DNA of 56,094 nt from Thermoproteota archaeon (lineage in GTDB: Archaea > Thermoproteota > Thermoprotei_A > Sulfolobales > Acidilobaceae): positions 1 through 56,094 of the forward strand of contig JAUQQR010000004.1 of the NCBI GenBank assembly GCA_030549835.1, read 5' to 3'. Below, in pieces: positions 6,401 to 56,082 of this stretch. Every line of letters begins with the position of its first letter. Positions within the stretch are counted from its first letter, which is position 1. The notes under the pieces were generated by a model. It worked only from the letters and a program-made list of their open reading frames with translations, did not search any database and was not told the origin of the DNA. Made by a program: the position numbers and the translations under genes.

Positions 6401-7852
6401 TCTGTCTCACCAAGCTCAGGCTGGTATGATGCCGGCTCTTTAATTCTAATTAGTGCTACACCATCTCCAGGCTGGACTTTTGAGCGATGGATTGGCTATG
6501 GAAATGGGTCATATAGTGGGACTAGAAGCTCTGTGAATATTATAATAAATGAACCTATAATTGAAATAGCATACTTCTACACTTTCTCAATCTCAGTTTT
6601 ACCTACAAATGGTTCCATAATACATGGTAGAAGTATTTCTACAATTATCACGGTTACACTCATTGGTGGTTATAACTCTTCAATTACTATAAGCTTTTCA
6701 GCTTCAGGTCTCCCACCAGGAACCTCAGTAAGCTTTAACCCAGATAGTGTTACGATTAATCCAAGTATAGCTACAGCTTATTCAAATATGACTATATTAA
6801 CTTCAACATTAACACCTGAAGGATTATACATAATAACTATTACAGGATTAGATGGTGGCTTGTCAAAAACAGCAATTTATACGCTTACAGTCTTAGCACA
6901 AACACATATAGTTAAATTCTACATTTACGATGAAGCTGGAAATGTTATTAGCGAAGCTTCATTAATTTTTGCAGGTAAAACTTACTCGCATGGTAGTACA
7001 ACAACTGTAACTATAGGCTCCTACCCACTTACAACTGGATTTATTCCAAGAGGGTATAGCTTTAAACAATGGGAATCATTTGGAGGTATTAGTATTATGA
7101 ATACAACGGAATCTTCAACAATAGCCACAGTAAGTGGAGATGGCTATATCATTATGAGGCTTACAGCTATACCTCTTACCGCGAAGTTTGAAATAAGTAA
7201 CTTGCTGATAAATCCAACGGAAGCTAACGTCGGAGAGGAGATAACGATATCAGTTACTGTGAGAAATATTGGTGAGAGAGAAGGAGTATATAGAGTGAAT
7301 TTAAAGATAAATGGTTTAGATGAGGCTAGTAAAGATATAAAGCTAGCACCTAGAGAATCGACTACTGTGACATTTAAGGTAAGAAGAGATGTTCCAGGTA
7401 TTTATAATGTTGAAGTAAACGGCTTAACAGGACGCTTTATACTAAAAGCACCCCTTAAGCCAGCCGAGTTTAGAATTACCAGTCTATCTATAAGTCCAAG
7501 TGAAGTTAAACCTGGAGAAGTTGTTAAGATCACAATCAATATAACCAATGTTGGCGAAGAGACAGGCTCTTATACAGTTAAACTTAAGGTAGATGGTGCA
7601 ATTGTAGATTCAAAAACTATTACACTTTCAGGGGGAGAATCTAAAATTGTTATATTTGAAGTAACCAGAAATGTAGTGGGAACATATGAGATTGAGGTCA
7701 ATGGACAGAGAGGAACTTTTACTGTGAAAGAAGCTGTAACACCTTTAACACCAATCAAAACCTGGCTACCATACATAGGCTTTGTCATCGTTATTATCTT
7801 AATCTTAGCTCTAGCAACATTCCTAGTTAAGAAAGGAAGAAAACAAGCATAA
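3428..7852 (+). CDS. Large cell-surface protein, GATase-like domain, InlB-type repeat, two CARDB domains, C-terminal anchor
   Basis: This 1474-aa protein is built for the cell surface. Residues 1-32 form a signal peptide (MAVILSMLFLVALVLAS core). Ig-like or fibronectin-like sequence follows to about 325. Residues 325-770 look like a flavodoxin/class I glutamine-amidotransferase-like fold: a starting strand VLIIDPYVKLWLL, a THGTLSDW segment and an end YRAVYFSFEVEA...LLVNAVEW as in ThuA-like domains. A glycine-rich thermopsin-like repeat plus YLTIQASPSDGGSVSPSSG (divergent InlB-type repeat) come next. Two CARDB-like domains (about 1245-1330 and 1345-1430) share the pattern VNVGEEITISV/VKPGEVVKITI. 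The C terminus is one membrane helix (WLPYIGFVIVIILILAL) and a KKGRK tail. Many N-x-S/T sites suggest glycosylation. Function unknown: S-layer, adhesion or extracellular enzyme. The frame is intact although both flanks are decayed. Confidence 0.85.
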   Translation: MKLKSLMNIEQSMAVILSMLFLVALVLASIPTQQVIIEPSSNSIISVFSLTRSPKTVHSMQGVIIFAEVYGNISTINLSVTITLSLMRDGSVLLSESRTFDLPMLPIPFSPGWYFTSIPGLPAKTMRDIIYTWKILSHVNYSLIVNGAQIASGNYTVIEGEASYKPPLVFTAVYEILSDPTLLMETGGLGPKGWVLGSNKQLKTLIVAIDSEGVKDVSFEFSVDGGPWNTLMLVPDELMSPIEDMIKKLNDIINLINGVIPPGLPKLSSISFSIKIFNAQIDGQPEGHYVMFRANVTDTDGNTSTSPSGFYYVVNESSSTRVLIIDPYVKLWLLQHNLKQLSKMLKDYSNYEIPDSIMRNITIISKISDLINRNGIIPFHHWEKLGKYYNLYIAWPDISVVDILKGGFEPSVIILSNLWLGVNVTGKISPWNWDLRDISILNELIVYIKTKHAGLIVTHGTLSDWIVWTDCSSEKHYKVGSRGHVGEAIEDVNIIFESTIAALLGMPELALWEYVRDQIAYTLCGQYEYLGLLVGSIPIQVPYVPFNGSMKTTIEAKYLDFNIPEEFSILIPSVYNEFNIPAYTQVGWQLVMPRALAYTAWWKAQEMRPQAERVYSKLSRLIENTTQEIYSSENIIQHMNMSLNWTLQSLYRSIISANISDAILSLVINIPNLGNSLTLTFNISNAYDMILQLLPTKLIALSKDGLAGIIVHDKYWSPLGYRAVYFSFEVEAVEDEIAEVLLVNAVEWSLKWQFKDITELLGGKVRVPKELASKFTEALNSLPGNLIESKGLILNEEGYAKIEILANTSGVLHVLIAHPTTSEVKIVILEGLARIINVTNVTEGITQVTIKVNETGKITIGLRSGSQSALNPVYVAVKQEVVAPPQTATITFSALGLSYDASGIVLIVDGVGYTYADLPISFTWEVGSYHSFTWTDLVSAGASKRYVWVSTSGLSDARSGLIIVPSGGGSITASYKTQYYLTIQASPSDGGSVSPSSGWYDAGSLILISATPSPGWTFERWIGYGNGSYSGTRSSVNIIINEPIIEIAYFYTFSISVLPTNGSIIHGRSISTIITVTLIGGYNSSITISFSASGLPPGTSVSFNPDSVTINPSIATAYSNMTILTSTLTPEGLYIITITGLDGGLSKTAIYTLTVLAQTHIVKFYIYDEAGNVISEASLIFAGKTYSHGSTTTVTIGSYPLTTGFIPRGYSFKQWESFGGISIMNTTESSTIATVSGDGYIIMRLTAIPLTAKFEISNLLINPTEANVGEEITISVTVRNIGEREGVYRVNLKINGLDEASKDIKLAPRESTTVTFKVRRDVPGIYNVEVNGLTGRFILKAPLKPAEFRITSLSISPSEVKPGEVVKITINITNVGEETGSYTVKLKVDGAIVDSKTITLSGGESKIVIFEVTRNVVGTYEIEVNGQRGTFTVKEAVTPLTPIKTWLPYIGFVIVIILILALATFLVKKGRKQA

Positions 7853-40540: not shown

Positions 40541-42916
40541 TTATAGGTCTGCCAGAGCTCTAACAGTGTTAAGTCTAGATGTTGTGATTAATACTGTAAT
40601 AGTTATTATTACTGTTACTACTATTAGTATTGTTAGCGTGTTGCTTGTGATTAGACTATTTAGTGTTACTTCAGGCTCTATGTATCCAAAGAATGTTGCT
40701 GTCTCTCTTGCTAGTAGCTTAGCTGTTATGTAGCTTGTAGCATATGCTATTGGTGTCGATAATATTATTATTGCTATTGTTTGAGTTAATGTTTCTAGTG
40801 CTCTACTACTTGGTGAAACCCCTAATGCTTTAAGTACTGCAATCTCTCTCATCTTTGCTTGACTCTCAACTATATTTATAGAGCTTAGTGCTACAGCTAC
40901 AGATATTAAAGCTATAATAGATATTATCCCTGTTACTCCTTGGATCATACGTGATGCTGTACTATATTCTCTAGAGACTTCATGTCTCGTGTAGTATTCA
41001 ACGTTTATAGACTCTACTGATTCGAGTATTTTCCTCAGCTTCTCAGCTTCATGCTCAATGCTTAACCCATCCTTTAGCCTAATAGCTAATCCTAAGCCTC
41101 TAAACTCCTCAGCTCTTAGCCCAGAGATCTTCACTATATCACTCTCTGTTAAGAGTAGGTATGAGCCCCTATCTTGTAGAGCCCTAGATATGCCGGTAAT
41201 CTTGAACTCCCAGATTCTCCCTAAGCCGTCTACTAGTCTTAACTTATCTCCGACTTTATAGCCTTTCAGCATTGCTAAACTCCTAGATATAACTACTTCG
41301 CCTTCCCTCTCAGGATATCTACCAGCCTCTAGTGGATACTCTATACTTGGGTCTCCAGCTATGGTAGCTCTAAGGAATACGAATGATAACCCCTCAACTC
41401 CAACCCCTAGGGTATACTGGAGTGTCACATGGTATCCGCTTACAGAGTCAACCTCCCCCATAATCCTCGAGATGTAGCCTAGAAGATCTATGCTTGGATC
41501 AGCTGCGTACACGAAGCCTATAATGTCTACTGGGTTATACTCTCTGTCCAGGGCTAAGCCTGAGTATTTTAAAGCACCGCTACCGAGGCTACTACTAGAG
41601 ACTTGAAGCCCCCATAAGATGGCTAATAATATAACAGTTGTTATAAGCTTCCACCTCCCAGAAGTAAGATTCCTAAGCCATAGCTTAAACCATAGGAATC
41701 TATGAAATCCAGATAGTATTCTCAAGGTTTCACCAGCATATAGGCCTGTAAAGCTTATAGACTTAACTATATCAATCCTATAAGCTAATACTAGAGGCAC
41801 TAGAGAGCCTAATGCTAGGAGAGCTAGAGCTATAATAGTGTACCTGAATGCTACATCATACATAAGCTTAAAGCCTACAGCCTCGTAGAGTAGCTCAGCA
41901 ATATAGGCACCGCCCATGAAGTACACATATAGCCATTTAGCGACATAGGGTGAAACAATTAAAGCAGGTATAGCCCCTAAGAGACCCCTAATAATCCATG
42001 GTAGAGAGTAGTATATGAATAAATCCATTGAACTAAAGCCTATAGACTTCATTACAGCAACTAGCTTATAATCTCTAGCTACACTTGCTAACCCTATAGA
42101 TGCAGACATCACAGGAGCTATTAGGAGTAGCGCGATGAGCGGCAACGTGAATATACCCATTAAACCCTCTATCAGGACATTAACTGGGTTCTCCTCCCTA
42201 ATATTTATGAAATACCATGATATTGAGACACCATTATCTCTTAGAGTTTTTAGAACATTCTCAGATACAGTCTTAACATCATCTCTAATGAGTATCCGTA
42301 AGGCTAGGTGGCTTTCTCCACTCATACCTCTAACTAGGTTCTCATTCATAATCAGCACGTATGGAGTCCTACCAATATGGTTAAAGCCTTCAGCTAAGCC
42401 TACTAGAGTAACGTTAAGCCTAGCTAGCTTACGCTCTGATACATTGAAAGCTACAACCTCAATGCCATCACCTAGGCTAGCATTAACCTTCTTAGCTATA
42501 GGGCCTCGGATAGATGAGTATAGAGTAGCCTCATTAGCATTACCTGGTAGTCTCCCCTCCTTAATAACAACTACTCTAAAGATACTAGTTATAGTCTCAT
42601 GACCTACTATAGATACCTGTATCCTCTCCCCTCCAACTAAAGCTACACCAGTCAGAGCCCTATATGGTGCTACATCTAAGACGCCATCTACCCTCTTAAC
42701 TAACTCTAAATGAGTGTCATTAAATAAGCCGAGAACTAGAAGATCTCCAGTAGCAGACCCAAACAGCTCATATACTTGATTCTTCATATTCTCCTTCATT
42801 ATAGCTATAGATGATATGCTTAGAATTGATATAAAGACTAGGAGAGCTACAGATATAGTCTCAAGCCATTTACCTGTAATAATTCTAAGTGCAGCCCTCA
42901 ATATAACCCTACTCAT
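40541..42916 (-). CDS. FtsX/MacB-type ABC permease (791 aa, duplicated)
   Basis: A two-part permease. An N-terminal helix (TISVALLVFISILSISSIAI) and an exterior MacB-PCD-like domain (about 45-240) lead to three helices, then a second half repeats this: helix (ITTVILLAILWGLQVS) near 430, exterior domain (455-675) and three final helices (VTGIISIIALISVAVAL, IAIIILSTPIAYATSYITA, LTILIVVTVIITITVLI). The FtsX signature appears at REIAVLKALGVSPSSRALE and at KLVAVMKSIGFSSMDL, the cytoplasmic coupling elements. The ATPase gene 42909-43589 overlaps its start by 8 nt. MacB/LolE relatives extrude lipids, lipoproteins or peptides mechanically; the cargo here is unknown. A subset of the following genes encode surface proteins in the same direction. 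Confidence 0.85.
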   Translation of the reverse strand: MSRVILRAALRIITGKWLETISVALLVFISILSISSIAIMKENMKNQVYELFGSATGDLLVLGLFNDTHLELVKRVDGVLDVAPYRALTGVALVGGERIQVSIVGHETITSIFRVVVIKEGRLPGNANEATLYSSIRGPIAKKVNASLGDGIEVVAFNVSERKLARLNVTLVGLAEGFNHIGRTPYVLIMNENLVRGMSGESHLALRILIRDDVKTVSENVLKTLRDNGVSISWYFINIREENPVNVLIEGLMGIFTLPLIALLLIAPVMSASIGLASVARDYKLVAVMKSIGFSSMDLFIYYSLPWIIRGLLGAIPALIVSPYVAKWLYVYFMGGAYIAELLYEAVGFKLMYDVAFRYTIIALALLALGSLVPLVLAYRIDIVKSISFTGLYAGETLRILSGFHRFLWFKLWLRNLTSGRWKLITTVILLAILWGLQVSSSSLGSGALKYSGLALDREYNPVDIIGFVYAADPSIDLLGYISRIMGEVDSVSGYHVTLQYTLGVGVEGLSFVFLRATIAGDPSIEYPLEAGRYPEREGEVVISRSLAMLKGYKVGDKLRLVDGLGRIWEFKITGISRALQDRGSYLLLTESDIVKISGLRAEEFRGLGLAIRLKDGLSIEHEAEKLRKILESVESINVEYYTRHEVSREYSTASRMIQGVTGIISIIALISVAVALSSINIVESQAKMREIAVLKALGVSPSSRALETLTQTIAIIILSTPIAYATSYITAKLLARETATFFGYIEPEVTLNSLITSNTLTILIVVTVIITITVLITTSRLNTVRALADL

Positions 42917-43589
42917 TCAAGTCACCTACTAGTACTCCATCTAACAGTCTAATCCTCCTATAAGCATAGCCTGCTAGCTCCTGATCATGAGTAGTATATA
43001 TGACTGTCTTACCTAGAGCATTAGCTTCTCTTAGGAGCTCAACAATCTTAATCTTATTAGCTCTATCTAGGAATGCTGTTGGCTCATCAGCTAGTATTAT
43101 TGGCGGATCATTAGCTAATGCTCTAGCTATGGCAACTCTCTGCTGCTCTCCACCACTAAGCTCCCACGGGAACTTATCTGCTTTATCTCTTAAGCCAACA
43201 AACTCTAACAACTCCATAGCCCTCCCAACCTTATCCTTAACCTTAACATTAGCGAGCTCCATCGACAACATAACATTCTCTAAAGCAGTAAGAGTTGGTA
43301 TAAGGTGGAAGAACTGGAAAATAATCCCAACATTATTCCTCCTCCACCTAGCCCTCTCACCATCCCCTAGCTTAGAGATCTCTAAGCCATCAATAATAAT
43401 ACTACCCCTACTAGGCCTATCAATACCTGAGAGTAAGTATATCAAAGTACTTTTACCAGAGCCGCTAGGTCCAATAATAGCTATAAACTCCCCTCTCTTA
43501 ACACTAAAGCTAACACCCCTGAGAGCCCAAACTCTAACCCTACCCATAACATACTCCTTCCAAACATCATTAAAAACAATGAGAACCAA
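42909..43589 (-). CDS. LolD/MacB-type ABC ATPase partnering the FtsX permease
   Basis: 226-aa ATPase with Walker A IGPSGSGKSTLIY, Q-loop FQFFHLIPTLTALENV, signature LSGGEQQRVAIARAL, Walker B IILADEPTAFLD and H-loop TTHDQELAGY, all intact. The sequence order and length match LolD/MacB/FtsE. TTG 43589 is the start. The stop overlaps the permease start by 8 nt, so subunits are made together. It follows the 58-aa coiled-coil gene by 97 nt. Confidence 0.9.
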   Translation of the reverse strand: MVLIVFNDVWKEYVMGRVRVWALRGVSFSVKRGEFIAIIGPSGSGKSTLIYLLSGIDRPSRGSIIIDGLEISKLGDGERARWRRNNVGIIFQFFHLIPTLTALENVMLSMELANVKVKDKVGRAMELLEFVGLRDKADKFPWELSGGEQQRVAIARALANDPPIILADEPTAFLDRANKIKIVELLREANALGKTVIYTTHDQELAGYAYRRIRLLDGVLVGDLNE

Positions 43590-43686
43590 GAATTACCCCA
43601 TATACTTATCGAATATAGTTCAACTTAAAAATTTATTCTATTTAGACTAAAAATACTAATATATGCGATTTAGGGGTTAACACTGA

Positions 43687-43863
43687 TTATGCCTTAAGCT
43701 TATCTACAAATCTCCTAATAATATCATTATATCTCTCCTCTAACTGCTTAGCCAACGATTGATACTTAATTTTAAGTTCTTCAAGTCTATGCTCGTAGTG
43801 TTCTCTCGCTCTCCTCCTTAGCTCTTCAACCTGTTTCTCTAACTTCTCTCTGCCTAGGCTCAA
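43687..43863 (-). CDS. 58-residue charged coiled-coil protein
   Basis: A short leftward frame: TTG 43863 to TAA 43687, with GGGG six nt upstream as RBS. It reads SLGREKLEKQVEELRRRARE, then HYEHRLEELKIKYQSLAKQL and DIIRRFVDKLKA: a continuous, very charged heptad helix without membrane segment. Its composition differs strongly from chance frames and matches gene-like codon use. It lies between the 1037-aa surface protein and the FtsX-type ABC ATPase in one direction, so a role in that cluster (scaffold or linker) is possible. Not recognised. It could belong to a V-ATPase stalk-like helical family, but no partner is present. Confidence 0.65.
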   Translation of the reverse strand: MSLGREKLEKQVEELRRRAREHYEHRLEELKIKYQSLAKQLEERYNDIIRRFVDKLKA

Positions 43864-43959
43864 CTTAACCCCTTATGTCATACTTTGATGGTTGAATCTT
43901 ATATAATATTAATTCCTACCTATATGCTAGTTGAGTATGTGTTTAGGTAGTGTGTATTT

Positions 43960-46900
43960 TTAGAAGTATTCTTCGTTTAATTTCTCTTCTACTATTCTCT
44001 TTATTCTTATTAGGGCTATTATTGCTACTAGTGCTCCGCCTGCTACTAGGAGGTATGGTGAGTACTTTAGTGTTAGTAGTGGTAGTGTTGGCTCTACTAC
44101 TATCTTATCTTCTAATGTCTCAGGCACAGTTATTGACTTATATGTCTTCTTATACCATCTCTTCTCAATTGTAATATCATATGTTCCGTGTGGTAGGCTT
44201 AGTGAGGTTAGTCCATTCTCGCTTGTGGTGGTCTCATACTCTAGCCCTCCTTCTACTCTAATTACTTTTATTATAGCGTCTACTACTGGTTTGCTCCATG
44301 TATCTCTAACTTCTAATACTACATTGTATACCTTGGGTTTGAGTTTTATAATTACTTCTCCGCTAGCCTCTACTATAAACTTTAAGTCTCTGGGGACCTC
44401 ATATATATCTCTCCCTGCAAGAGTCAATGTTACCTTATATGTTCCAGGTGGTAGGCTAGTCTTGTATGATCCCTTTGTTACGGTAAACTCTCTAGGGTAA
44501 TCTAGCATGTGCGACCCAGGCTCTAGCCTCTCAATCTTAAGCTTAAATGGTTCCTGGACTAGTGTGTTAAAGGTTCCATCTATAAGCTTGATTGTCACAT
44601 TAATACTCCTAGGCTTTAAGATTAATATACTAGGCTCTACGCCCCTCATTGTAACCTTAACGTTGATACTTAGAGATTCATAGGATCTATCAAGCGGTAG
44701 TGCTTCAAGCTTATATATGCCTAGTGGAACATCAGAGAATAATACTAACCCATTACTAGATGTAGATCTATAAGTGGCATGCTCACTTATAAGAGTTATC
44801 CTCACAGGAGATAATATAGGGTTTCCATCAACATCTCTAATCTTAAACTCAACATTAACCCTAGGCGTATATAATCTAGCTATAGTATTGAGCTCATTTA
44901 ATTCTCTAATAAGCTCAACTAGTAGTGACCTAGGTTGAGGAATTAAGACTAGGAGAGCCTCGTTAAATCCAATAGTAACGGGGAACAGTATACTTTTAGA
45001 CTCTCTCCCTTCAAAGTTAATAGTTAAGTTGAAGAGACCCTGGGGTAAATAGAGTGTAGCAGTGCTATTGGAGACTCTAGTCTCCGCTACTATTGCATTA
45101 TTCTTCTTAATTTTAACACTTATGTCCCCTATTGGATCTATTAGGAGCCATGATCCTTCTAATGTGTAATCTATCATTAGGACCCTAATAAATACAGGGT
45201 TTAGATCTTTGAGAGGCTGGTTGAATAGATATATTTTATTTGAGCCTGGAGAGTATAGTATCACCTTATCAGAATACCTAGAACCAGCTATAATACTACC
45301 TAGCCTAGTGTCTAAGCCCAGGAAGCCGGGAGCACTCCTCCACAGCGGGTGCCAAATATTTTCTTCTAAATTAATTAACTGTATCCTACCAGACATTGAG
45401 GTGGCTAGAGTAAGCTTTCCACCATATATCTCTACTATAGAGGCTATGGGAGTAGAGTCTACTACTAGAGATAAACTCATATAATATCTAGCCTTATTAG
45501 GTATATGGGGAGTTATTAGCGGTAAATCCATGAGCCACGATAACTTATATACTGTCCCATTAGATACCCCGACATAGATCCTCCTAGAGTCTGGGGATAC
45601 TTCTAGAGCCGTAATCCTACTACCAAGATATATTATTTGAGGCTGAGTATAGCCTACGTCTACTAGGCTTAAACCCTCGCCAAGATAGTATATTAGGAGC
45701 CACTCTCCAATACCTATAGCTAGTATTGACTTAATACCCTTATCAGCCCACCCTGTTGGGATCCCCAGCTTAGGCCTTAATAGCATAGCTACCTGGTGAT
45801 TAGCTAGATTTAATATCCCCCTATCAGCCATCTCTCTCGATATAGGCGCTATAATTGTCTTAATATCAACGCCATACTCGTAGATTTCTGGGAGCCTGCT
45901 AGTATCTATTAGTAGTAATACTTGAGCATAGGCTGGATTATCTAGTTTATTGAAGGGTATACCGTTGACTATAGTACCTTCTAGGCAACTGGATAATGTG
46001 GATCCACAATAATTCAATTCTAAGCTACCCATATCAGTTACTAATCCAGGCTTCACCTCAAAACTCTTATACCCAGCATAGTATGAACTCTTAATAATTA
46101 TTCTCTTAACAGTATCTACAACTCTAACCTCATATAATGATAGTATAGTGTATTTTTGTGGAGGGAGACCTAGTATAGTTATAGTATAGTTACTAGCCTC
46201 ATAGACGTTAATATCTCGCCCTAAACTTAAAGGTAACAGTATAGACTCGTAGACTACTCCATAGTATAGCCTCCTCTCAATAGTAATATTCTCATTAACC
46301 CTATATAATCCTGTATATGACGGTTCTAGTAAGCCACTAATATTATAGTATACTTGAACTCTTAGACCGCCTAGGAAACTATTCACTATAGGGGTAGCTG
46401 GGAGTATTACGTTAGTAAATGCTACAATCTTCTCTCCACTATTAAAGTATGCTACCCAGTCTTTAAAGTATATTGTAGGGTATACTCTCAGAATATTCAC
46501 ATCATATAATCCTATTAAGGCACCTCTATGCCTTACGGGCCCTACCTCAAACCACCCGCCACTACTTAATACTCCTCTAATAAACTTCATAACATAGAGG
46601 AACCCCATATTATCTAAGACTATTAGCCTCTCCTCTCCACCAACTCTAGCTAGATATGCGCTCTTAACAGAGCCTCTTGAGGCGACATAGAAGCTCGTTT
46701 TAGGTGTTAAGTCTTTAAAACTAGCTACTATTACTTCACCTAGGCTGGTACCTACAGTAACCCATTCTGGTGGATTAGAGTCTACTGATAGTGATGTTAC
46801 ATTCCCAATAACACCTAAGGCTCTCTCTATACTCTCTGTATTAATGTTTACTTTAGCAATATATCCTTCTCCAGCTATTATAGCATAGTCTCTAGTTGAG

Positions 46901-47073
46901 ATGAGACTGTAATACTTTAGGTTACCAGGTAGCTCTATGTAGTTTAGGCCGTAGACATTAGTCGAGCCACCCGTTAATTTCATATTCATGGGAAATATGT
47001 TACTTGAGGATGGGAGTATTAGGAACTGGAGTATTATAATTACTAGTAGTCCTAGAATAACGTATCGTCTCAT
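43960..47073 (-). CDS. Large surface protein: beta-propeller-like front and carboxypeptidase-regulatory-like repeats, C-terminal anchor
   Basis: The 1037-aa protein starts with a signal peptide (MRRYVILGLLVIIILQFLIL). Residues about 40-170 and 450-560 hold propeller-type repeats (AGEGYIAKVNINTESIE, GKLTLATSMSGRI, RRIYVGVSNGTVYKLSW). Residues 690-1000 hold three or more beta-sandwich domains like carboxypeptidase regulatory/PEGA domains (EFKIRDVDGNPILSPV, FNLTINFEGRES, VVLEVRDTWSKPVVDAII with TYDITIEKRWYKKTY). A final helix (YLLVAGGALVAIIALIRI) and a basic tail (KRIVEEKLNEEYF) anchor it. It sits divergent to the pilus-motor genes 47204-50583. Substrate or partner unknown; an extracellular sensor or adhesin is likely. 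Confidence 0.7.
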   Translation of the reverse strand: MRRYVILGLLVIIILQFLILPSSSNIFPMNMKLTGGSTNVYGLNYIELPGNLKYYSLISTRDYAIIAGEGYIAKVNINTESIERALGVIGNVTSLSVDSNPPEWVTVGTSLGEVIVASFKDLTPKTSFYVASRGSVKSAYLARVGGEERLIVLDNMGFLYVMKFIRGVLSSGGWFEVGPVRHRGALIGLYDVNILRVYPTIYFKDWVAYFNSGEKIVAFTNVILPATPIVNSFLGGLRVQVYYNISGLLEPSYTGLYRVNENITIERRLYYGVVYESILLPLSLGRDINVYEASNYTITILGLPPQKYTILSLYEVRVVDTVKRIIIKSSYYAGYKSFEVKPGLVTDMGSLELNYCGSTLSSCLEGTIVNGIPFNKLDNPAYAQVLLLIDTSRLPEIYEYGVDIKTIIAPISREMADRGILNLANHQVAMLLRPKLGIPTGWADKGIKSILAIGIGEWLLIYYLGEGLSLVDVGYTQPQIIYLGSRITALEVSPDSRRIYVGVSNGTVYKLSWLMDLPLITPHIPNKARYYMSLSLVVDSTPIASIVEIYGGKLTLATSMSGRIQLINLEENIWHPLWRSAPGFLGLDTRLGSIIAGSRYSDKVILYSPGSNKIYLFNQPLKDLNPVFIRVLMIDYTLEGSWLLIDPIGDISVKIKKNNAIVAETRVSNSTATLYLPQGLFNLTINFEGRESKSILFPVTIGFNEALLVLIPQPRSLLVELIRELNELNTIARLYTPRVNVEFKIRDVDGNPILSPVRITLISEHATYRSTSSNGLVLFSDVPLGIYKLEALPLDRSYESLSINVKVTMRGVEPSILILKPRSINVTIKLIDGTFNTLVQEPFKLKIERLEPGSHMLDYPREFTVTKGSYKTSLPPGTYKVTLTLAGRDIYEVPRDLKFIVEASGEVIIKLKPKVYNVVLEVRDTWSKPVVDAIIKVIRVEGGLEYETTTSENGLTSLSLPHGTYDITIEKRWYKKTYKSITVPETLEDKIVVEPTLPLLTLKYSPYLLVAGGALVAIIALIRIKRIVEEKLNEEYF

Positions 47074-47203
47074 AACTAGTACTTTAAGTCACCTAGATTA
47101 TAGTTTTCAAATCTATTGTTTTAAAAGTCAATTAATGATTAATGTAGTTTAAGTTAATTCAAATTTACACCTACTAGGTACTATTAAATCACTGGGTTTA
47201 AGT

Positions 47204-48838
47204 TTGAAGATTATAAACATATTAAACACATTATTTCGCAGTAAGACTAGTAAAACAGAGAATACTCAAACATATACTACTTCTGCTATAGAGGATAGCT
47301 CAGTGAAGTCCTCCTATGAGCCTGAGATGACTAATAGTGAATATATTGAGATTAATAGGTATAAGCTTATAGATCCATGGGCTTGGGCTTTAATCCTTGA
47401 GTCTAAGTCTACTGGGGAGAGAGTATACTATGTTAGTGAGGCTCCAATGAGTGACCTCGAGAAGAGCATATATGGTAGAATCATGAAGATTATAGAGTGG
47501 GAGATTAAGCCATATAAGGGCGGTAAGGACTCGAGTATATCATATGATCTAATAAGAGAATATTTCATAGATCAGGTTAGGAGGATTGTCAGAGTTTATA
47601 GCATTAAGCTTGGAGCCGTAACTAGAGGTGTAGACTGGCATAAGATACTATACTATCTACTTAGAGATACTGTAGGCTACGGTCCACTAGAGCCTCTAAT
47701 GAGAGACCCATATATTGAGGATATTAGCTGTGATGGTGTAGGTAAACCAGTCTACATATGGCATCAGATGTATGAGAGTATGCCTACGAATATAAGATTT
47801 AATAGTGATGAGGAGTTAGACTCTATAGTATTAAAGCTTGCACATATAGCTGGCAAACATATTAGTGTAGCCTTCCCAATAGTTGACGCTATACTCCCTG
47901 GGGGTCATAGGCTAGCTGCAACTTTTAAGAGAGAGATTAGCGTTGGCGGATCATCATTCACAATTAGGAAGTTTAGGGAGAAGCCTTTAAGCATAGTTGA
48001 CTTAATTATACAGAGGAGTATTAATAGTCTTATAGCAGGCTACCTGTGGCTACTAGTAGAGTATAAGATGCCCGGCATAATTATGGGTGTAACAGGCTCT
48101 GGTAAGACTACAATGCTTAACGCTATAGCTACACTATTAAGACCCAATATTAAAGTTGTAACCATAGAGGATACCCCAGAGCTCAGATTAACATTAGAGA
48201 ACTGGGTACAACTAGTATCTAGACCAAGCTACTCACTAACAGGGAGTAAAATTGGAGAAGTCACATTATATGACTTAGTAAAAGTAAGCTTAAGATACAG
48301 GCCTGACGTCATAATTGTTGGAGAGATTAGAGGAGAAGAAGCATATGTACTATTCCAAGCTATAGCTACAGGTCACGGCGGGCTAACAACAGCTCACGCT
48401 GAGAGTATCTATGCACTAGTTAGAAGACTAACAAGCCCCCCAATGAATATTCCACAAAATTACATCCCCCTAATGAAGTGGGCTCTATTAGTTAAGAGGA
48501 TTGTTTTAGCTAGAGAGGGGAAGCTAAGTGTTTATAGGAGAGTATCCAATATATGGGAGATTAGGGGGCCTAATGATTACGAGAATATAGCAGTATGGGA
48601 TCCACCAATAGATTCTCATAGAGTAAATCTTAGTAATAGCAACTTACTAAGAGATATAGCCCAGCAAACCGGGTTAAGCTTGAATGATGCAATAGATGAG
48701 GTTAAGAGAAGAGCTTATGTGCTAGAGCAACTAGCATTGAGAGGAGAGAGAGATTATAGGAGAGTTGCAGAGGTAGTATATATGTACTACATCAACCCAG
48801 ATAGAGTACTAAGTTCTCTTGGAGGTCCTGAAATTTGA
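47204..48838 (+). CDS. Type II/IV secretion-like ATPase (GspE/TadA/FlaI family)
   Basis: The 544-aa hexameric motor ATPase has an N-terminal domain to about residue 245 and the secretion ATPase core: MGVTGSGKTTMLNAIAT (Walker A), VVTIEDTPELRL (Asp box), LRYRPDVIIVGEIRGEEAYV (Walker B) and ATGHGGLTTAHAES (His box). It powers assembly of type IV pili, archaella or DNA/protein transfer machines in archaea. The start is TTG 47204. The TGA stop overlaps the next gene's TTG by 4 nt, so it is coupled to the TadC-like membrane protein. There is no pilin-like gene or prepilin peptidase nearby, so the structure cannot be named. Confidence 0.88.
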   Translation: MKIINILNTLFRSKTSKTENTQTYTTSAIEDSSVKSSYEPEMTNSEYIEINRYKLIDPWAWALILESKSTGERVYYVSEAPMSDLEKSIYGRIMKIIEWEIKPYKGGKDSSISYDLIREYFIDQVRRIVRVYSIKLGAVTRGVDWHKILYYLLRDTVGYGPLEPLMRDPYIEDISCDGVGKPVYIWHQMYESMPTNIRFNSDEELDSIVLKLAHIAGKHISVAFPIVDAILPGGHRLAATFKREISVGGSSFTIRKFREKPLSIVDLIIQRSINSLIAGYLWLLVEYKMPGIIMGVTGSGKTTMLNAIATLLRPNIKVVTIEDTPELRLTLENWVQLVSRPSYSLTGSKIGEVTLYDLVKVSLRYRPDVIIVGEIRGEEAYVLFQAIATGHGGLTTAHAESIYALVRRLTSPPMNIPQNYIPLMKWALLVKRIVLAREGKLSVYRRVSNIWEIRGPNDYENIAVWDPPIDSHRVNLSNSNLLRDIAQQTGLSLNDAIDEVKRRAYVLEQLALRGERDYRRVAEVVYMYYINPDRVLSSLGGPEI

Positions 48839-50583
48839 GTAGTAAGAGATCTATTAGCATTATAGAGGTATTCGATTACTTAGCTATAAAATATTTTGGA
48901 GAATTAGCTGTATACATAGCTAAAACTTTTGAATTAGAGCAAGCTATTAGAAGAGCGGGTCTAGACATTTATCCTCCACTATATGCTGCTAGGCTAATCC
49001 TATATACTGTAATAGCTTTATTAATATCTCTATACTCGATTTTCATTATCCTCTTAACAGGCTTAAGTCTAACTGTTAAGATAGCTTTATCTATGGTTCT
49101 ACTATCTATACCAATCCTAGTCTACGCTATAGGCCTATCATACCCGTCCTATAAGGCTGGTGAGAGGAGGAGCTGGGTTGAGAGTGAGATTTCACTATTT
49201 GCTGCATACTTAACAGCTATGGCTATAGCCGGTCTAGATGTAGTCTCTACTCTAGATAGGGTTGCTAGGTTACAGGTATTTAGAGGTATTAGGGATGAGG
49301 CTCTAAGGATACTAAAGTCTATTAGGATACTCGGTAAGGATCCACTAGATGCAATAGAATTTAATTCTTCAAACCACCCAAGCCCATTGTATAGAGACTT
49401 TATGCTAGGATTCTCAGCTACAACTAAAATTGGGGGTAGTATTATTGGGTACCTTGAGATGAAGACTAGTGATATCTTTAAGTCTAAGATTGAAGAGCTG
49501 AAACTTATGGCTGAAAGGATTGCTCTATACACAGAGTTATATATTATAATATCAGTTATAATGTCTGTATCACTATACATATTCTTCACTATAAGCTCCC
49601 TATTCCCTGGCACAGGCTTCGGGGGACCTACTCAGCTAGTACTCTTTAGCTTCATATTCATGCCTCTAATAACACTACTACTAATATACTTAGTTGATAA
49701 AACCCAGCCACGTAACCCTGTTAGGATTCCTAAACTCTACGAGGCCATACTAGTCTATGGAGTTCCATCAGCTATAGTATCAGTACTCATACTAGCATAT
49801 CTTACAGGATCCTATAAGCTGTTAGCTGGAGCCCTAGATAGGGATACTATAATAGCATCAAATGTAACCTTAGCTGGAGCCCTAGTAGCTCTAAGTATAC
49901 CTAGCTCATACCTGTGGATTATAGAGTCTAGGAAACTTAAGGGAATGGGGGATTCGCTAGCTAGCTTTCTTAGAGACCTTGTTGAGATTAGGAAAATGGG
50001 TTTAAGCCCTGAGAAGAGTATAGTCGTATTATCTAATAGAGATTATGGACCGTTAAACCCAATAATTAGGAAGATAGCCGCCTCACTATCACTAGGCTTT
50101 GATATGGAGAGAGCTGTAGCATCAGCTCTAAGAGGCTACTATAACTGGATGCTAATATCAACACTAAGGTTCTTAACAGACGCTATAACATTAGGCGGTG
50201 GGAGTATAGAGACGATTGATAGCCTAGCTAGATACACTAGGAGCCTAGCAGACTTCGAGAGCGAGCTATCAAGGAGGCTAAAGATATATGTGATCATGCC
50301 CTACATAGGTGCAGTCATGGTGGCAGGCTCTAGCATGATGATATTATCATATACAGCTCAAACACTAACACTAAACCCTCAACAATCAACACTACTTGAA
50401 GATTTAGGAAGAATAACATTAATAGTAAGTCTAGGAGCGCTATTTAACTCGTGGCTAATGGGTATAATGGCTGGGAAGCTTAGTAGAGGGAGTATAGTAG
50501 CAGGATTCCAGCACTCTATAATACTAACAATAATAGCATTATTAGTAATAGCATTTACAGTGAGTAGCATACCAGGACTATAA
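48835..50583 (+). CDS. TadC/FlaJ-like membrane platform protein
   Basis: 582 aa with about nine helices in two repeated halves. The cytoplasmic T2SSF domains fall at about 110-220 (LFAAYLTAMAIAGLDVVSTL) and 375-480 (LASFLRDLVEIRKMGLSPEK, then FLTDAITLGGGSIETIDSLARY), separated by membrane helices (YIIISVIMSVSLYIFFTIS; TQLVLFSFIFMPLITLLLIY). It forms the inner-membrane base of type IV pilus-like machines, bound by the ATPase encoded upstream. The genes overlap by 4 nt. The last helix is GFQHSIILTIIALLVIAF. The operon ends here; 34 nt separate it from a convergent gene. Confidence 0.87.
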   Translation: MSSKRSISIIEVFDYLAIKYFGELAVYIAKTFELEQAIRRAGLDIYPPLYAARLILYTVIALLISLYSIFIILLTGLSLTVKIALSMVLLSIPILVYAIGLSYPSYKAGERRSWVESEISLFAAYLTAMAIAGLDVVSTLDRVARLQVFRGIRDEALRILKSIRILGKDPLDAIEFNSSNHPSPLYRDFMLGFSATTKIGGSIIGYLEMKTSDIFKSKIEELKLMAERIALYTELYIIISVIMSVSLYIFFTISSLFPGTGFGGPTQLVLFSFIFMPLITLLLIYLVDKTQPRNPVRIPKLYEAILVYGVPSAIVSVLILAYLTGSYKLLAGALDRDTIIASNVTLAGALVALSIPSSYLWIIESRKLKGMGDSLASFLRDLVEIRKMGLSPEKSIVVLSNRDYGPLNPIIRKIAASLSLGFDMERAVASALRGYYNWMLISTLRFLTDAITLGGGSIETIDSLARYTRSLADFESELSRRLKIYVIMPYIGAVMVAGSSMMILSYTAQTLTLNPQQSTLLEDLGRITLIVSLGALFNSWLMGIMAGKLSRGSIVAGFQHSIILTIIALLVIAFTVSSIPGL

Positions 50584-51872: not shown

Positions 51873-52811
51873 TCATTTATGATGCATAGTAGCGTGTAGT
51901 ATTACATGCCTAATACTCTCTAATATACTCTCCCCAGCCCATCCAGGAGGCACACCTATTACGATTCTACCTCTAGCGTTAGCCTCTTCAGCAATCATCT
52001 TATCCAAAATAGTCATGAATCTATGTGACCCATGGTCATGCTTATGATTATGTTTATGGTCATGCTTATGGTCAGTAATTGCAACTACAGCTATAACATT
52101 GCTATCATCTAATGCTCTTATAGCTTCTTCTATAGCACTAGCTTTAGGAGTCTCATGGGTATCCCAGACTATGTATGAAACTACGTTTAGGCCGAGCCAA
52201 GCTACTGCAGGCTGTAACTCAGCTGTTGTTAAGACAGCATTATAGCCCTTTAGTATCCCGGAATAGCGGCTAATTAATTCTTCAACTTCACTCCTAACCT
52301 CACTCAGTCTACTATAATAGTAATCTCTCTTCTCTGGTCTAAGCCTACTCATCTCATCAACTAATACTTCTAATATCAATATAAGATTCCTAGGATCATA
52401 GTATGGTTCATGAATATTTATTTTACCATCAGGGAGCCTTGGCAGTATTAAACCCTCAATCTCTAGGACATTAATGAATCTAGCTTTAACCTCACCCCTC
52501 TTAATCATGCTCTCAACCTGTTCATCAACATGAGTATGCCCCATAGACAGTACTATGTTAGCTCTTCTAATCATCTCAACATCTGATGGTGATAATTGTA
52601 GCTCATGCGGGTCAACGCCCGCACCGCCAATAACATAGAGTTTGTCATCGCTAGATAGTAGCCGGTTAACCTCCTTCTGAATACCCGGGAATAGTAGTAC
52701 GATTGTTAAGCCCTCACTAGGCGTGTATACACCTCTATATAGTACTATGATTAATCCTAGTAGAGCTACTAGTACTACTACTGAGGCTCCAAGTAATAAA
52801 TTCCTATTCAT
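51873..52811 (-). CDS. Metal-binding ABC solute-binding protein (ZnuA/TroA type) with His-rich loop
   Basis: About 312 aa. A N-terminal hydrophobic anchor (LLLGASVVVLVALLGLIIVLY) has no lipobox. The cluster A-1 fold shows VIGGAGVDPHELQLSPSDV (first His ligand), LSMGHTHVDEQVESM (second His site) and AVVAITDHKHDHKHNHKH followed by DHGSHRFM, a His/Asp-rich loop common in zinc-binding ZnuA. LTTAELQPAVAWLGLNVV contains the usual Glu/His site position, and IWDTHETPKASAIEE follows. ATG 52811 with GAGGTG upstream is preferred to GTG 52820. It is divergent from the ATPase/permease/regulator genes. Zinc is most likely; Ni or Mn possible given the NikR-like regulator. Confidence 0.82.
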   Translation of the reverse strand: MNRNLLLGASVVVLVALLGLIIVLYRGVYTPSEGLTIVLLFPGIQKEVNRLLSSDDKLYVIGGAGVDPHELQLSPSDVEMIRRANIVLSMGHTHVDEQVESMIKRGEVKARFINVLEIEGLILPRLPDGKINIHEPYYDPRNLILILEVLVDEMSRLRPEKRDYYYSRLSEVRSEVEELISRYSGILKGYNAVLTTAELQPAVAWLGLNVVSYIVWDTHETPKASAIEEAIRALDDSNVIAVVAITDHKHDHKHNHKHDHGSHRFMTILDKMIAEEANARGRIVIGVPPGWAGESILESIRHVILHATMHHK

Positions 52812-52972
52812 GTGCACCACCTCAATTATAAACTATATTACTCGTGCACTTAAATATCTTAATTAACAGTTAATCTATATTAAGCTTAGAATCCTATATC
52901 AGATGTTATTGGGGTTGTATAACTGTGCACAATTTAAATAACCACATATCTATTAGATTTGAAGATGTGCAC
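52812..52972. promoter_or_regulatory. Four GTGCAC palindromes across the znu-type divergent promoter: candidate operator
   Basis: GTGCAC occurs at 52812-52817, 52844-52849, 52925-52930 and 52967-52972. The first overlaps the RBS/start of the binding protein gene; the second flanks its minus-strand TATA region (TAATATAGTT, 52831-52840). The third contains the GTG start codon of the ATPase gene and the fourth lies early in it. Four copies of one 6-mer in 161 bp is far above chance. A ribbon-helix-helix regulator encoded at the end of the rightward operon is the obvious binder. Inference only. Confidence 0.5.
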
Positions 52973-53683
52973 GTTAGGTTTGGTGATGTTATAGCTCTAG
53001 ATGGGGTGAGCTTCGAGGTTAGAGGTCCTGGTTTAATTCAGATTCTAGGACCTAATGGTGCTGGCAAGTCTACTCTATTAAAGGTTATTACTGGGTTAGT
53101 TAAGCCTAGCTCTGGTAGGGTGTATATTAATGGTTTAGACTTGGCTATGTTTAATAAGCTTAATGATAGGTACTTATCATATGTTCCCCAGACTAATCAG
53201 CCACCTAGAGACTCTCCATTAACTGTATGGGAGTTTATAGAGACAGCTGCTACTATTAAGAAGCTAAGGTGGCCTAGGCTATTTACATCTAGTGTTAAGA
53301 GTAGTGTGGTTAGATGCTTAGAGAATGTAGGTCTATCTAGGGAGGAGTGGGGTAAGAGGTTGAGAGATCTTAGCGGAGGCTTATTTCAGAGGGTGCTAGT
53401 TGCTAAAGCTTTGATTAGTGATCCTGCGATAGTATTACTTGATGAGCCACTCGCCTCTGTAGATCCTGATGGTAGGGTATCTCTAGCTAGACTATTAGGA
53501 TCTATTGCTAAGAGTAAGTTAGTAATAGTTACAAGCCATGACCCTAACCCCCTCATAGACTACACTAACGTAGTCATACTACTGAATAAGCGTGTAATAG
53601 CTATGGGTGATCCCCTAGAGACACTTAGACTATATAGTCCAAGGGTTTTATACCCTGAGTGGGTGTCAGATCATGGCCATTAA
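52925..53683 (+). CDS. ABC ATPase for Zn/Mn/Ni-type uptake (ZnuC-like)
   Basis: 252-aa ATPase with Walker A GPNGAGKSTLLKV, Q-loop YVPQTNQPPRD, signature LSGGLFQRVLVAKAL, Walker B IVLLDEPLASVDP and H-loop VTSHDPN, complete. Similar to ZnuC/MntB ATPases. GTG 52925 follows GGGGTTG by 7 nt and is itself part of a GTGCAC palindrome. It overlaps the permease gene by 11 nt. It is divergent to the binding protein gene. Confidence 0.88.
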   Translation: MHNLNNHISIRFEDVHVRFGDVIALDGVSFEVRGPGLIQILGPNGAGKSTLLKVITGLVKPSSGRVYINGLDLAMFNKLNDRYLSYVPQTNQPPRDSPLTVWEFIETAATIKKLRWPRLFTSSVKSSVVRCLENVGLSREEWGKRLRDLSGGLFQRVLVAKALISDPAIVLLDEPLASVDPDGRVSLARLLGSIAKSKLVIVTSHDPNPLIDYTNVVILLNKRVIAMGDPLETLRLYSPRVLYPEWVSDHGH

Positions 53684-54542
53684 TCCTCTAATAGTAACCC
53701 TAATATTATCATCTACTATACTCTTAGCTTTAGCCCCACATATTTACTGGTTTATAGGCTATGGTGTTGTAGCCTCACTTATAGGAGCTTCACTAGCATT
53801 TGGCTCTATAAGTGTACTCGTATCTGCTAGGAGACTATACTTTATGGCCCATGTAGTCCCCCATATGGCTATATTTGCTGCTCCAATAGCTATCATTGTA
53901 ACACGGCACCTCCAGGTTAATGAGTGGCTTTTATCAGCAATAATAGTTATGATACTACTATGGGCTTCAGGCTACGCTATTAGCCGCGGTTTGAGTAGTG
54001 ATATTATAGCGTCACTGTCTGTATCTTTTACCGCGTCGGCTACAATCATAGCACTATATTATGCTCAGAGGATTGTAGGTGCTGGGAGGATATCATCAAT
54101 AATACTTGGAGACCCTCTATTGACTAGTATTAGTGAGGGTTTAATAGCTCTAGTAGTAGGCTCTATGATATTACTAGCATCATTAATGGTAGTGAGGGAG
54201 ATGTTCTATATAAGTGTTGATAGGGAGGGAGCTATAGTTGATGGTTTAAGAGTAGTATACTATGATTACACACTCTATACTCTAATAGGTGTAACGGTAG
54301 CTATTATGCTTAAGATAGTAGGCTTCCTAGTATCAAGCATCCTAATACTAGTACCTGGAGCTGTGAGCCTCCTACTATCTAGGAGCTCTTATGAGGCGCT
54401 AATGGCTTCAATAGGCGTATCCCTAATAGCATCAGCTCTAGGCCTATACGCTGGAATACTCCTAGACATACCACCATCTGGAGCTTTAGGCCTAATCCTG
54501 GTAGCTATATATGCTCTCGTATGGGTGGCTAGGAGTGCCTAA
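53673..54542 (+). CDS. ABC permease for Zn/Mn/Ni-type uptake (ZnuB-like)
   Basis: 289 aa with about eight helices. Typical ZnuB/MntC features: ISVLVSARRLYFMAHVVPHM (family-specific loop after helix 2), SGYAISRGLSSDIIASL, and the coupling loop VDGLRVVYYDYTLYTLIG, ending with LVSSILILVPGAVSLLLSR and ASALGLYAGILLDIPPSGA. ATG 53673 overlaps the ATPase stop by 11 nt. The regulator gene starts within its last 8 nt. Confidence 0.87.
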   Translation: MAINPLIVTLILSSTILLALAPHIYWFIGYGVVASLIGASLAFGSISVLVSARRLYFMAHVVPHMAIFAAPIAIIVTRHLQVNEWLLSAIIVMILLWASGYAISRGLSSDIIASLSVSFTASATIIALYYAQRIVGAGRISSIILGDPLLTSISEGLIALVVGSMILLASLMVVREMFYISVDREGAIVDGLRVVYYDYTLYTLIGVTVAIMLKIVGFLVSSILILVPGAVSLLLSRSSYEALMASIGVSLIASALGLYAGILLDIPPSGALGLILVAIYALVWVARSA

Positions 54543-54915
54543 GAGGAAGTTTGGTGTAAGTATTAGTGATAGCTTAGCTGAAAGCCTAGACAATCTCTGT
54601 AGCGTACTAGGTGTTGATAGGAGTAGTGTAGTTGAGAGAGCTATAGGAAACCTTATAGTAGAGTACTCTCACCACCTAGTAAGTCATGAGTGCCTAGCTC
54701 TACTAGCAATAGTATGCTCAGAGGAGGAGAATATTCAGGATATACTTAGAGATGTGAGAGATATCGATGTAACACAAATACACAACCATAGGGGGAATAA
54801 GTGTACCCAAGTAATAATAGCCTCAGGCCCTAGTGATAAGATAGCTGAGCTCTACTCAAAATTAAATAGTATAGAGAACTGTAGAGTTAAGTATATGGCT
54901 CTACACGATATATGA
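54535..54915 (+). CDS. NikR-like ribbon-helix-helix metal regulator
   Basis: From GTG 54535 (inside the permease stop: GTGCCTAA) the product is about 126 aa. The N-terminal RHH domain reads RKFGVSISDSLAESLDNLCS and DRSSVVERAIGNLIVEYSHH; the C-terminal ACT-like half has DVTQIHNHRGNKCTQVIIAS. In NikR the nickel ligands are one His about 11 residues before an H-x-H-x5-C motif. Here the motif is H-x-H-x4-C and the earlier His is an Arg. The metal may therefore not be nickel. It probably represses the uptake genes when metal is plentiful, binding the GTGCAC sites. The ATG at 54511 would place the start inside the permease frame and is less likely. Confidence 0.75.
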   Translation: MPKRKFGVSISDSLAESLDNLCSVLGVDRSSVVERAIGNLIVEYSHHLVSHECLALLAIVCSEEENIQDILRDVRDIDVTQIHNHRGNKCTQVIIASGPSDKIAELYSKLNSIENCRVKYMALHDI

Positions 54916-54957: not shown

Positions 54958-56082
54958 ATGCCGGCTTATAATTCCTCCGGGGTCCCTATACTCAACCTTA
55001 TACTAGTGCTTGGGCTAGCAATGATAACAGCAGTATGGGCCTACTATGAGGCCCTGCTAGCCTCTAAGATAGCTTTAGGCTTATCTAGTGGAGTCTACGC
55101 TAGCCTCCTAGGCTTTATTGGTATAACTATAGCATACATATCTAAGCTCCCCCTCCTAAGGCTCATGTATAGGTTTGAGGTTAGAAAGAATAGCTTAATA
55201 ATAGCATCAATACTATTGCTACTAGCACTCACACCAAAATACCTAGCTGAGGACCACTATTCACTCACAATATCCTATCTAATCCTATCAGCTTCATATG
55301 GCTTAGCCTCAGCATCAATATTCATGTTTATAATTAATGACTTAAGCTATGAAGATTGGCGTAAGGCTCTAGCAATACTACCTATGGCATCAGCAGTTAT
55401 AGCCTCACTAACACTAGTATCCTGGGCACAGCTAAAAGCAGATATAGCTCCACCAGTAATCATAATTGGATCACTACTACTAGCATACGGGTACATTACC
55501 TCTGTAAGACCACTAATACCATCACTAACACTGAAAAGCCTAGAGATACTATCAGATATACTAGCCTTCAGAGGAGCAATCACAGCCTACAGGAACTGGC
55601 ACATTGAAGTAACTAAGATAGCTCTAATCCTAGGAGGGCTAGGAGCACTAAAAATACTAATACTATCAAAAGCAATAATAGAATATAGCATATACAGTAT
55701 AGTATCATACAATATAGGAGTAGCAATAGGGGCAATAATAGCATACAAGGAGAGTAAGCCAAGAATAACACAAATACTAGCAATAACAACAATAGCAATA
55801 CTACTACTCACAAATAACACACTAATAGCACTAGCACTAATAGGAGTAACAATAGCATACGGACAAATATCAACAATAGACTACATACTAGAGAATAGGC
55901 CAAGAGCAGTATACACAGCAATAGCAATAATAACAACAACTATAGGTATAGGAGCAGTAATAACAGGAATAGCATCACTAGCAAACACAGAGAAAGCAAC
56001 AATAATAACACTAGCAATAACAATAGCAACAATCACAACATCAATAATAATAGATAAAAAACAAAAAAGAAAATGGGAATAA
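54958..56082 (+). CDS. Multi-pass membrane protein, MFS-like, unknown function
   Basis: 374 aa with about ten helices (IPILNLILVLGLAMITAVWA, SLTISYLILSASYGLASASI, ITKI-type charged loops between). The first half resembles a truncated MFS half with loop LPLLRLMYRFEVRKNS, but there is no clear MFS signature; other membrane families are equally possible. The tail KKQKRKW is cytoplasmic. The coding strand is extremely A/C-rich at its 3' end: only 12 of the 60 bases in 55981-56040 are G or T. Nothing else is seen after it to 56094. Confidence 0.6.
   Translation: MPAYNSSGVPILNLILVLGLAMITAVWAYYEALLASKIALGLSSGVYASLLGFIGITIAYISKLPLLRLMYRFEVRKNSLIIASILLLLALTPKYLAEDHYSLTISYLILSASYGLASASIFMFIINDLSYEDWRKALAILPMASAVIASLTLVSWAQLKADIAPPVIIIGSLLLAYGYITSVRPLIPSLTLKSLEILSDILAFRGAITAYRNWHIEVTKIALILGGLGALKILILSKAIIEYSIYSIVSYNIGVAIGAIIAYKESKPRITQILAITTIAILLLTNNTLIALALIGVTIAYGQISTIDYILENRPRAVYTAIAIITTTIGIGAVITGIASLANTEKATIITLAITIATITTSIIIDKKQKRKWE

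Follow-up and report, generated by a model that had tools for sequence, protein, structure and literature searches.

The stretch of DNA analysed here, hereafter the window, is the entire contig C7 of genome G000 (56,094 bp), and it contains a pilus motor next to a large surface protein of 1037 amino acids (aa), which we named PROP. PROP is encoded at 43960-47073 on the minus strand and contains a CarboxypepD_reg domain (Pfam, 3.8e-12). Directly downstream of it lies the gene for a helical coiled-coil mini-protein of 58 aa (43687-43863, minus strand). On the other side, an intergenic region of 130 bp (47074-47203) separates PROP from the divergent gene of a GspE/PilB-type pilus assembly ATPase (47204-48838, plus strand; 544 aa; T2SSE, 4.3e-34), which overlaps by 4 nt with that of a TadC/UpsF/ArlJ-type platform protein (48835-50583, plus strand; 582 aa; T2SSF, 3.6e-14). 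Beyond the mini-protein are an FtsX-type permease and its partner ATPase, which are considered below. Open reading frames (ORFs) and Pfam scans confirmed these six genes, with the positions and families that had been given to them in the original prediction. Gene calls were mechanical ORFs; the named relatives are metagenome-assembled genomes (MAGs) of Acidilobaceae, Desulfurococcaceae, and Thermodiscus, and part of the relatives are draft MAGs. By these relatives, G000 is placed in the GTDB order Sulfolobales sensu lato (hereafter the order), in or close to the family Acidilobaceae.

The conservation of the locus was examined in two surveys. For the near relatives, up to 20 kb around PROP homologues was taken from 30 loci and the ORFs were clustered. 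For the order, a PROP profile and the window GspE were searched against 121 genomes with a completeness of at least 90%, and the genome counts were obtained by comparing two coordinate tables by eye. PROP was divergent from GspE-TadC in five of the five congeners, as in the window. Orthologues of GspE with at least 51% identity were found in about 42 genomes of the order, and together with intein-interrupted ones in about 46; in these, PROP directly adjoined GspE in about 31, lay 2-7 kb away from it in 4 and apart from it in about 9, while contig ends left 2 cases unresolved. Furthermore, locus maps confirmed the adjacency in 37 genomes, including less complete ones, and it spanned families f1, f2, f3, f5, f7, f8, f9, and f10 while the surrounding genes varied. 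Most relatives keep the divergent layout; in G052 and G042 the coiled coil, PROP, GspE, TadC, and a pilin form a single co-directional row. PROP was present as one copy, next to one GspE clade and not next to the other GspE paralogues seen. In the GspE tree the sequences cluster according to host family, which points to an ancestral, vertically inherited linkage that was lost a few times. The proposed association of surface protein and pilus motor, for which synteny had been named beforehand as the test, is thus supported across the order.

Several relatives carry an intein in the GspE of this clade (Intein_splicing, in some with LAGLIDADG_3), giving frames of 895-1016 aa (L042, 6363-9371; L046, 12599-15286; L035, 11594-14299; L114, 10043-13093). 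The window GspE is intein-free. Because the intein lies at about query residue 303 in G012 and at about 389 in G018, the sequences suggest more than one insertion site.

PROP is predicted to begin with a signal peptide, followed by a beta-propeller into which another domain is inserted, some four beta-sandwich domains, a single C-terminal transmembrane (TM) helix, and a cytoplasmic tail ending in EEYF. In the AlphaFold2 (AF2) model, which was built with six sequences, an N-terminal signal helix is followed by the propeller with an inserted sandwich (about 30-625), a series of sandwiches (about 640-1000), and a helix at 1005-1032. Pfam gave no propeller call on the window PROP itself; the propeller was seen in relatives by Pfam, in the match of the family profile to WD40/propeller chains, and in the AF2 model. 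The earlier description as a propeller and carboxypeptidase-regulatory surface protein therefore stands, the latter domain by Pfam and the propeller by these three routes. No solved relative was found with the window protein as the query, and the family profile matched solved structures at the level of domains only, namely propellers and sandwich repeats. The relatives are about 940-1960 aa long, sandwich repeats being more numerous in longer proteins, and three family members showed 1, 3, and 6 CarboxypepD_reg stretches by Pfam. In congener G001 (L031, 6846-9913), the PROP gene is broken up as two ORFs and adjoins a short duplication, which may reflect a pseudogene or an assembly error.

All complete GspE-linked members have an N-terminal signal or TM segment, a C-terminal TM segment, and a short acidic tail, for the most part with E-E-x-F as its last residues. 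In complete members this tail extends 8-17 residues past the C-terminal hydrophobic segment and is first basic and then acidic. All GspE-adjacent PROP proteins of Acidilobaceae end in EYF and most others in E-x-F, with exceptions such as G049, G051, G059, and G044. Conservation of this terminal cytoplasmic sequence among proteins with an overall identity of 20-40% suggests a docking motif. The window PROP has no class III signal peptide. Being also anchored at its C-terminus, PROP is no usual filament subunit. The surface protein had been proposed as a cargo or tip of the machine; the C-terminal TM helix, the conserved tail, and the missing class III signal favour a fixed component of the envelope over a filament subunit.

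A coiled coil of 54-66 aa lies directly behind PROP in the window and in its Acidilobaceae relatives G001, G004, G012, G013, G015, G016, G023, and G031; the association of the mini-protein with the surface protein, as first proposed, thus recurs. In other families, a coiled-coil family of about 140 aa (A6) adjoins PROP or GspE. Where these two are separated, A6 stays by one of them, beside PROP in G104 and near GspE in G093. A6 also occurs unlinked in genomes without PROP and is thus not exclusive to the PROP-motor system. Homology between the 58-aa protein and A6 was undetectable (hhalign probability 0.4), and the two are alike in position only.

The motor has two marks of an archaeal type IV pilus, namely a secretion ATPase of the GspE/PilB superfamily and an adjoining TadC/PilC-like platform protein. 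The window GspE scored 350.7 bits against NF058587, the NCBIfam model of the archaellum ATPase FlaI/ArlI (equivalog cut-off 550), and 250.7 bits against the bindosome BasE model (curated cut-off 1000), and thus falls below both. The platform protein matched the UpsF model at 3.6e-32, also below the cut-off. ArlH (KaiC-like), ArlF, and ArlG did not turn up in Pfam scans near the motor, for which no dedicated search was made.

Pilins were detected with a profile derived from the loci, because Pfam Pilin_N (PF07790) was too insensitive, giving no match in G000, G005, or G003. The pilin ORF cluster comprises 24 proteins of 130-180 aa, whose class III signal peptides include RKGISPVIATVIIVAVAIAISIAVAGWLMGLW; as a profile, the cluster matched archaeal pilins of solved structure. 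In about 27 loci, pilins bearing such signals adjoin the motor. No pilin was found within the window. However, the last gene of the contig, which encodes a 374-aa membrane protein (54958-56082, plus strand), is informative in this respect. G005 shares the gene order of the window after TadC (acyl-CoA dehydrogenase, ZnuA, ABC, ABC-3 permease, ribbon-helix-helix protein, and 374-aa-type membrane protein), and its pilin begins 10 bp past the last of these shared genes. The window ends 12 bp past the same gene, at the homologous pilin position. In G001 and G004, pilins also follow the 374-aa-type membrane protein gene directly. Given this gene order, the absence of a pilin is probably an artefact of the contig end, with the pilin just past it, and a pilin-less motor was set aside. 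No close pilin was found elsewhere in G000; the one match, on C23, goes with a different GspE-TadC pair. A prepilin peptidase of the A24 type, which is also expected of a type IV pilus, was found in G000 at C59:17068-17394 (PF01478, above the cut-off). The original prediction had noted that no pilin or peptidase was present. This holds literally within the window but is misleading as a description of the system, and a motor working without either is not supported.

The pilin genes of the congeners carry repeats. G001 has near-identical copies (165 nt, 99% complementarity, 6.6 kb apart) and so does G004 (81 nt at 95%), in inverted and direct orientation (L072, 11413-11975; L073, 3742-4548 and 10485-11048). 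Through such copies, pilins could undergo inversion or gene conversion; the copies could also account for the break of the window's contig at this place. A penicillin amidase homologue (PF01804, 6e-161) adjoins the pilins of G005 at L071 3088-5634, and ORFs of 799-801 aa with a similar N-terminus lie beside the pilins of G001 and G004 (L072 and L073). A multi-membrane protein family of 400-450 aa, f13, also recurs beside pilins (L046, L048, L052, L056, L107, L108, L115, and L125). The member tested (L108) gave no Pfam match; the family resembles GT-C type glycosyltransferases, and pilins may be its substrates.

Taken together, these findings suggest that the locus is probably an archaeal type IV pilus of known class, and not the wholly new machine first envisaged, with PROP as a previously uncharacterised part. 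As the linkage is conserved, PROP is likely a component of the pilus machine of some kind, judging from sequence comparison. We consider it fairly likely that a type IV pilus locus lies with one end in the window and that PROP is its dedicated membrane-anchored accessory, acting as a stator or S-layer scaffold. Taken by itself, the stator or S-layer role is a somewhat doubtful part of this reading, and a contact of PROP with the motor is inferred. PROP would be secreted by its N-terminal signal and held by the single C-terminal TM helix beside the TadC platform. The beta-sandwich stalk, of lineage-dependent length, would span the space beneath the S-layer, placing the propeller at or near it. 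There, PROP may serve as an anchor of the machine, as an opening or guide for the passing pilus, or as a lateral support, in a role comparable to that of ArlF/ArlG in the archaellum. On the cytoplasmic side, the motor or the coiled-coil partner would provide a docking site for the tail, in which basic residues precede E2-4-x-F. More tentatively, the loci may represent an order-wide subtype of type IV pilus with an envelope-spanning module of its own, in which the PROP head and variable stalk serve as an S-layer port or stator that is coupled to the motor via the E-E-x-F tail and the coiled coil.

Several observations weigh against a dedicated machine part of this kind. The linkage was lost in the whole genus g13 (two closed genomes) and in a number of further genomes; most of these still have both genes, and adjacency is therefore not required. 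Type IV pili are also made by Sulfolobaceae, which have no homologue of PROP; the Sulfolobaceae matches to the PROP profile were CarboxypepD_reg domains in proteins of 410-650 aa and were rejected as homologues. The AF2 model has moderate confidence (predicted local distance difference test score pLDDT 78, predicted template modelling score pTM 0.60), so that domain positions are uncertain. Foldseek with this model returned generic propellers and Cna/thioester-adhesin sandwiches only, which fits an adhesin equally well.

Indeed, PROP might be a pilus-associated adhesin or assembly primer like PilY1, whose propeller binds surfaces or cells and which the motor presents or sheds at the tip. The propeller and adhesin-like sandwich architecture would suit such a protein, and 6fwv, a thioester/collagen-adhesion protein, was among the best PDB matches by both profile and fold. 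Propellers are carried by PilY1 and by PilX2 of Saccharibacteria (PMC12206443), and Makarova et al. 2016 (PMC4858521) place adhesins in several archaeal type IV pilus models. Against this, the C-terminal TM anchor and cytoplasmic tail of PROP are conserved, and the window PROP lacks a class III signal peptide. In addition, Pfam found neither vWA nor DUF2341 in the window PROP or six relatives, nor the combination of vWA and PilY1 propeller domain that defines the PilY1 family. We therefore regard an adhesin as unlikely.

It is likewise improbable that PROP is a general cell-surface or S-layer protein outside the machine that has in common with the pilus only its regulation by one divergent promoter. 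The mostly divergent layout would agree with this explanation, as would the persistence of PROP, unlinked, in g13, G039, G060, G093, and G104. However, the genes form co-directional rows in G052 and G042, the tail on the cytoplasmic side is strictly conserved, and the single PROP copy stays by one GspE clade among the paralogues seen. On balance, we favour the stator or S-layer scaffold over both a PilY1-like adhesin and a merely co-regulated surface protein.

The two remaining genes are the permease (40541-42916, minus strand; 791 aa; FtsX PF02687, 5.6e-9) and the LolD/MacB-type ATP-binding cassette (ABC) ATPase that is its partner (42909-43589, minus strand; 226 aa; ABC_tran, 1.5e-37); both are passengers outside the system. 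The FtsX domain was above the Pfam cut-off, and the ATPase was nearest to LolD, below every equivalog cut-off listed. None of the five congeners has the permease in its PROP locus. Homologues lie about 18-20 kb from PROP on the same contig in G001 and G004 and on other contigs in G002 and G003; none was found in G005 (86% complete), though this genome keeps PROP and the motor. In relatives with the permease the ABC ATPase adjoins it, and the two genes thus move jointly as a cassette, which lay beside PROP in no relative examined. Since the homologues lie elsewhere and the adjacency is not conserved, the exporter is a separate cassette that stands here by chance, and it was ruled out as a component of the system. 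The four leftward genes of the original prediction are therefore real as ORFs but not one unit, as in relatives only PROP and the mini coiled coil stay together. A single new envelope machine made of the exporter, coiled coil, PROP, and pilus motor, for which their adjacency in the window and the homologues on PROP's contig in G001 and G004 would speak, is accordingly very improbable in view of these separate locations and of G005.

Other genes of the window include a zinc-type ABC uptake cluster at 51873-54915 (ZnuA, ATPase, ABC-3 permease, and a ribbon-helix-helix/NikR_C-like regulator), which is kept beside the pilus motor in G005 and G022, and a second giant surface-type protein of 1474 aa at 3428-7852 with CARDB and InlB-B-like repeats.

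The passage of archaeal pili through the S-layer is described as unresolved: Aap is wider than the S-layer pores, ArlF/G serve the archaellum, and the archaellum is the only machine for which an anchoring component is known (PMC11607397). PROP, with its anchor and conserved tail and kept by one motor clade through most families of the order, is a concrete and testable candidate for S-layer crossing. If this is true, it would be the first recognised S-layer-crossing component of an archaeal pilus other than the archaellum. PMC4858521 describes crenarchaeal type IV pili as three-component systems and gives Desulfurococcales of subclade 4A three to four extra components, the origin of which was untraced. 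No description of PROP was found in the literature searched; it may already be listed, unnamed, among these extra components.

The archaellum proteins ArlF and ArlG resemble PROP in the proposed role, in which a machine of the type IV pilus kind is held in the envelope and contacts the S-layer via beta-sandwich domains. They are small pilin-like proteins, whereas PROP is large, has the topology of a type I membrane protein, and includes a propeller, and no homology was shown. PilY1 of bacterial type IVa pili is similarly large, contains a propeller, and is associated with a type IV pilus. However, PilY1 is secreted, acts at the tip or in priming, and has a vWA domain or another region at its N-terminus, whereas PROP is held by a TM anchor and extends into a cytoplasmic tail, and no sequence match was shown. 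AapX and UpsX are, like PROP, extra genes in pilus clusters, in their case of Sulfolobales, and their function is unclear. AapX is a different membrane-anchored protein (PMC11178815), and neither is described as a propeller/stalk surface protein. Finally, the crenarchaeal type IV pili (Aap, Ups, and the Sulfolobales bindosome; clades 4A/4H/4I/4J of PMC4858521) have in common with the PROP locus a GspE-type ATPase, one TadC-like platform protein, and PilA-type pilins with class III signals, and sometimes extra large secreted proteins. The PROP-linked motor clade differs from them in its recurrent neighbours, namely a giant TM-anchored protein with propeller and stalk and a gene for a coiled coil.

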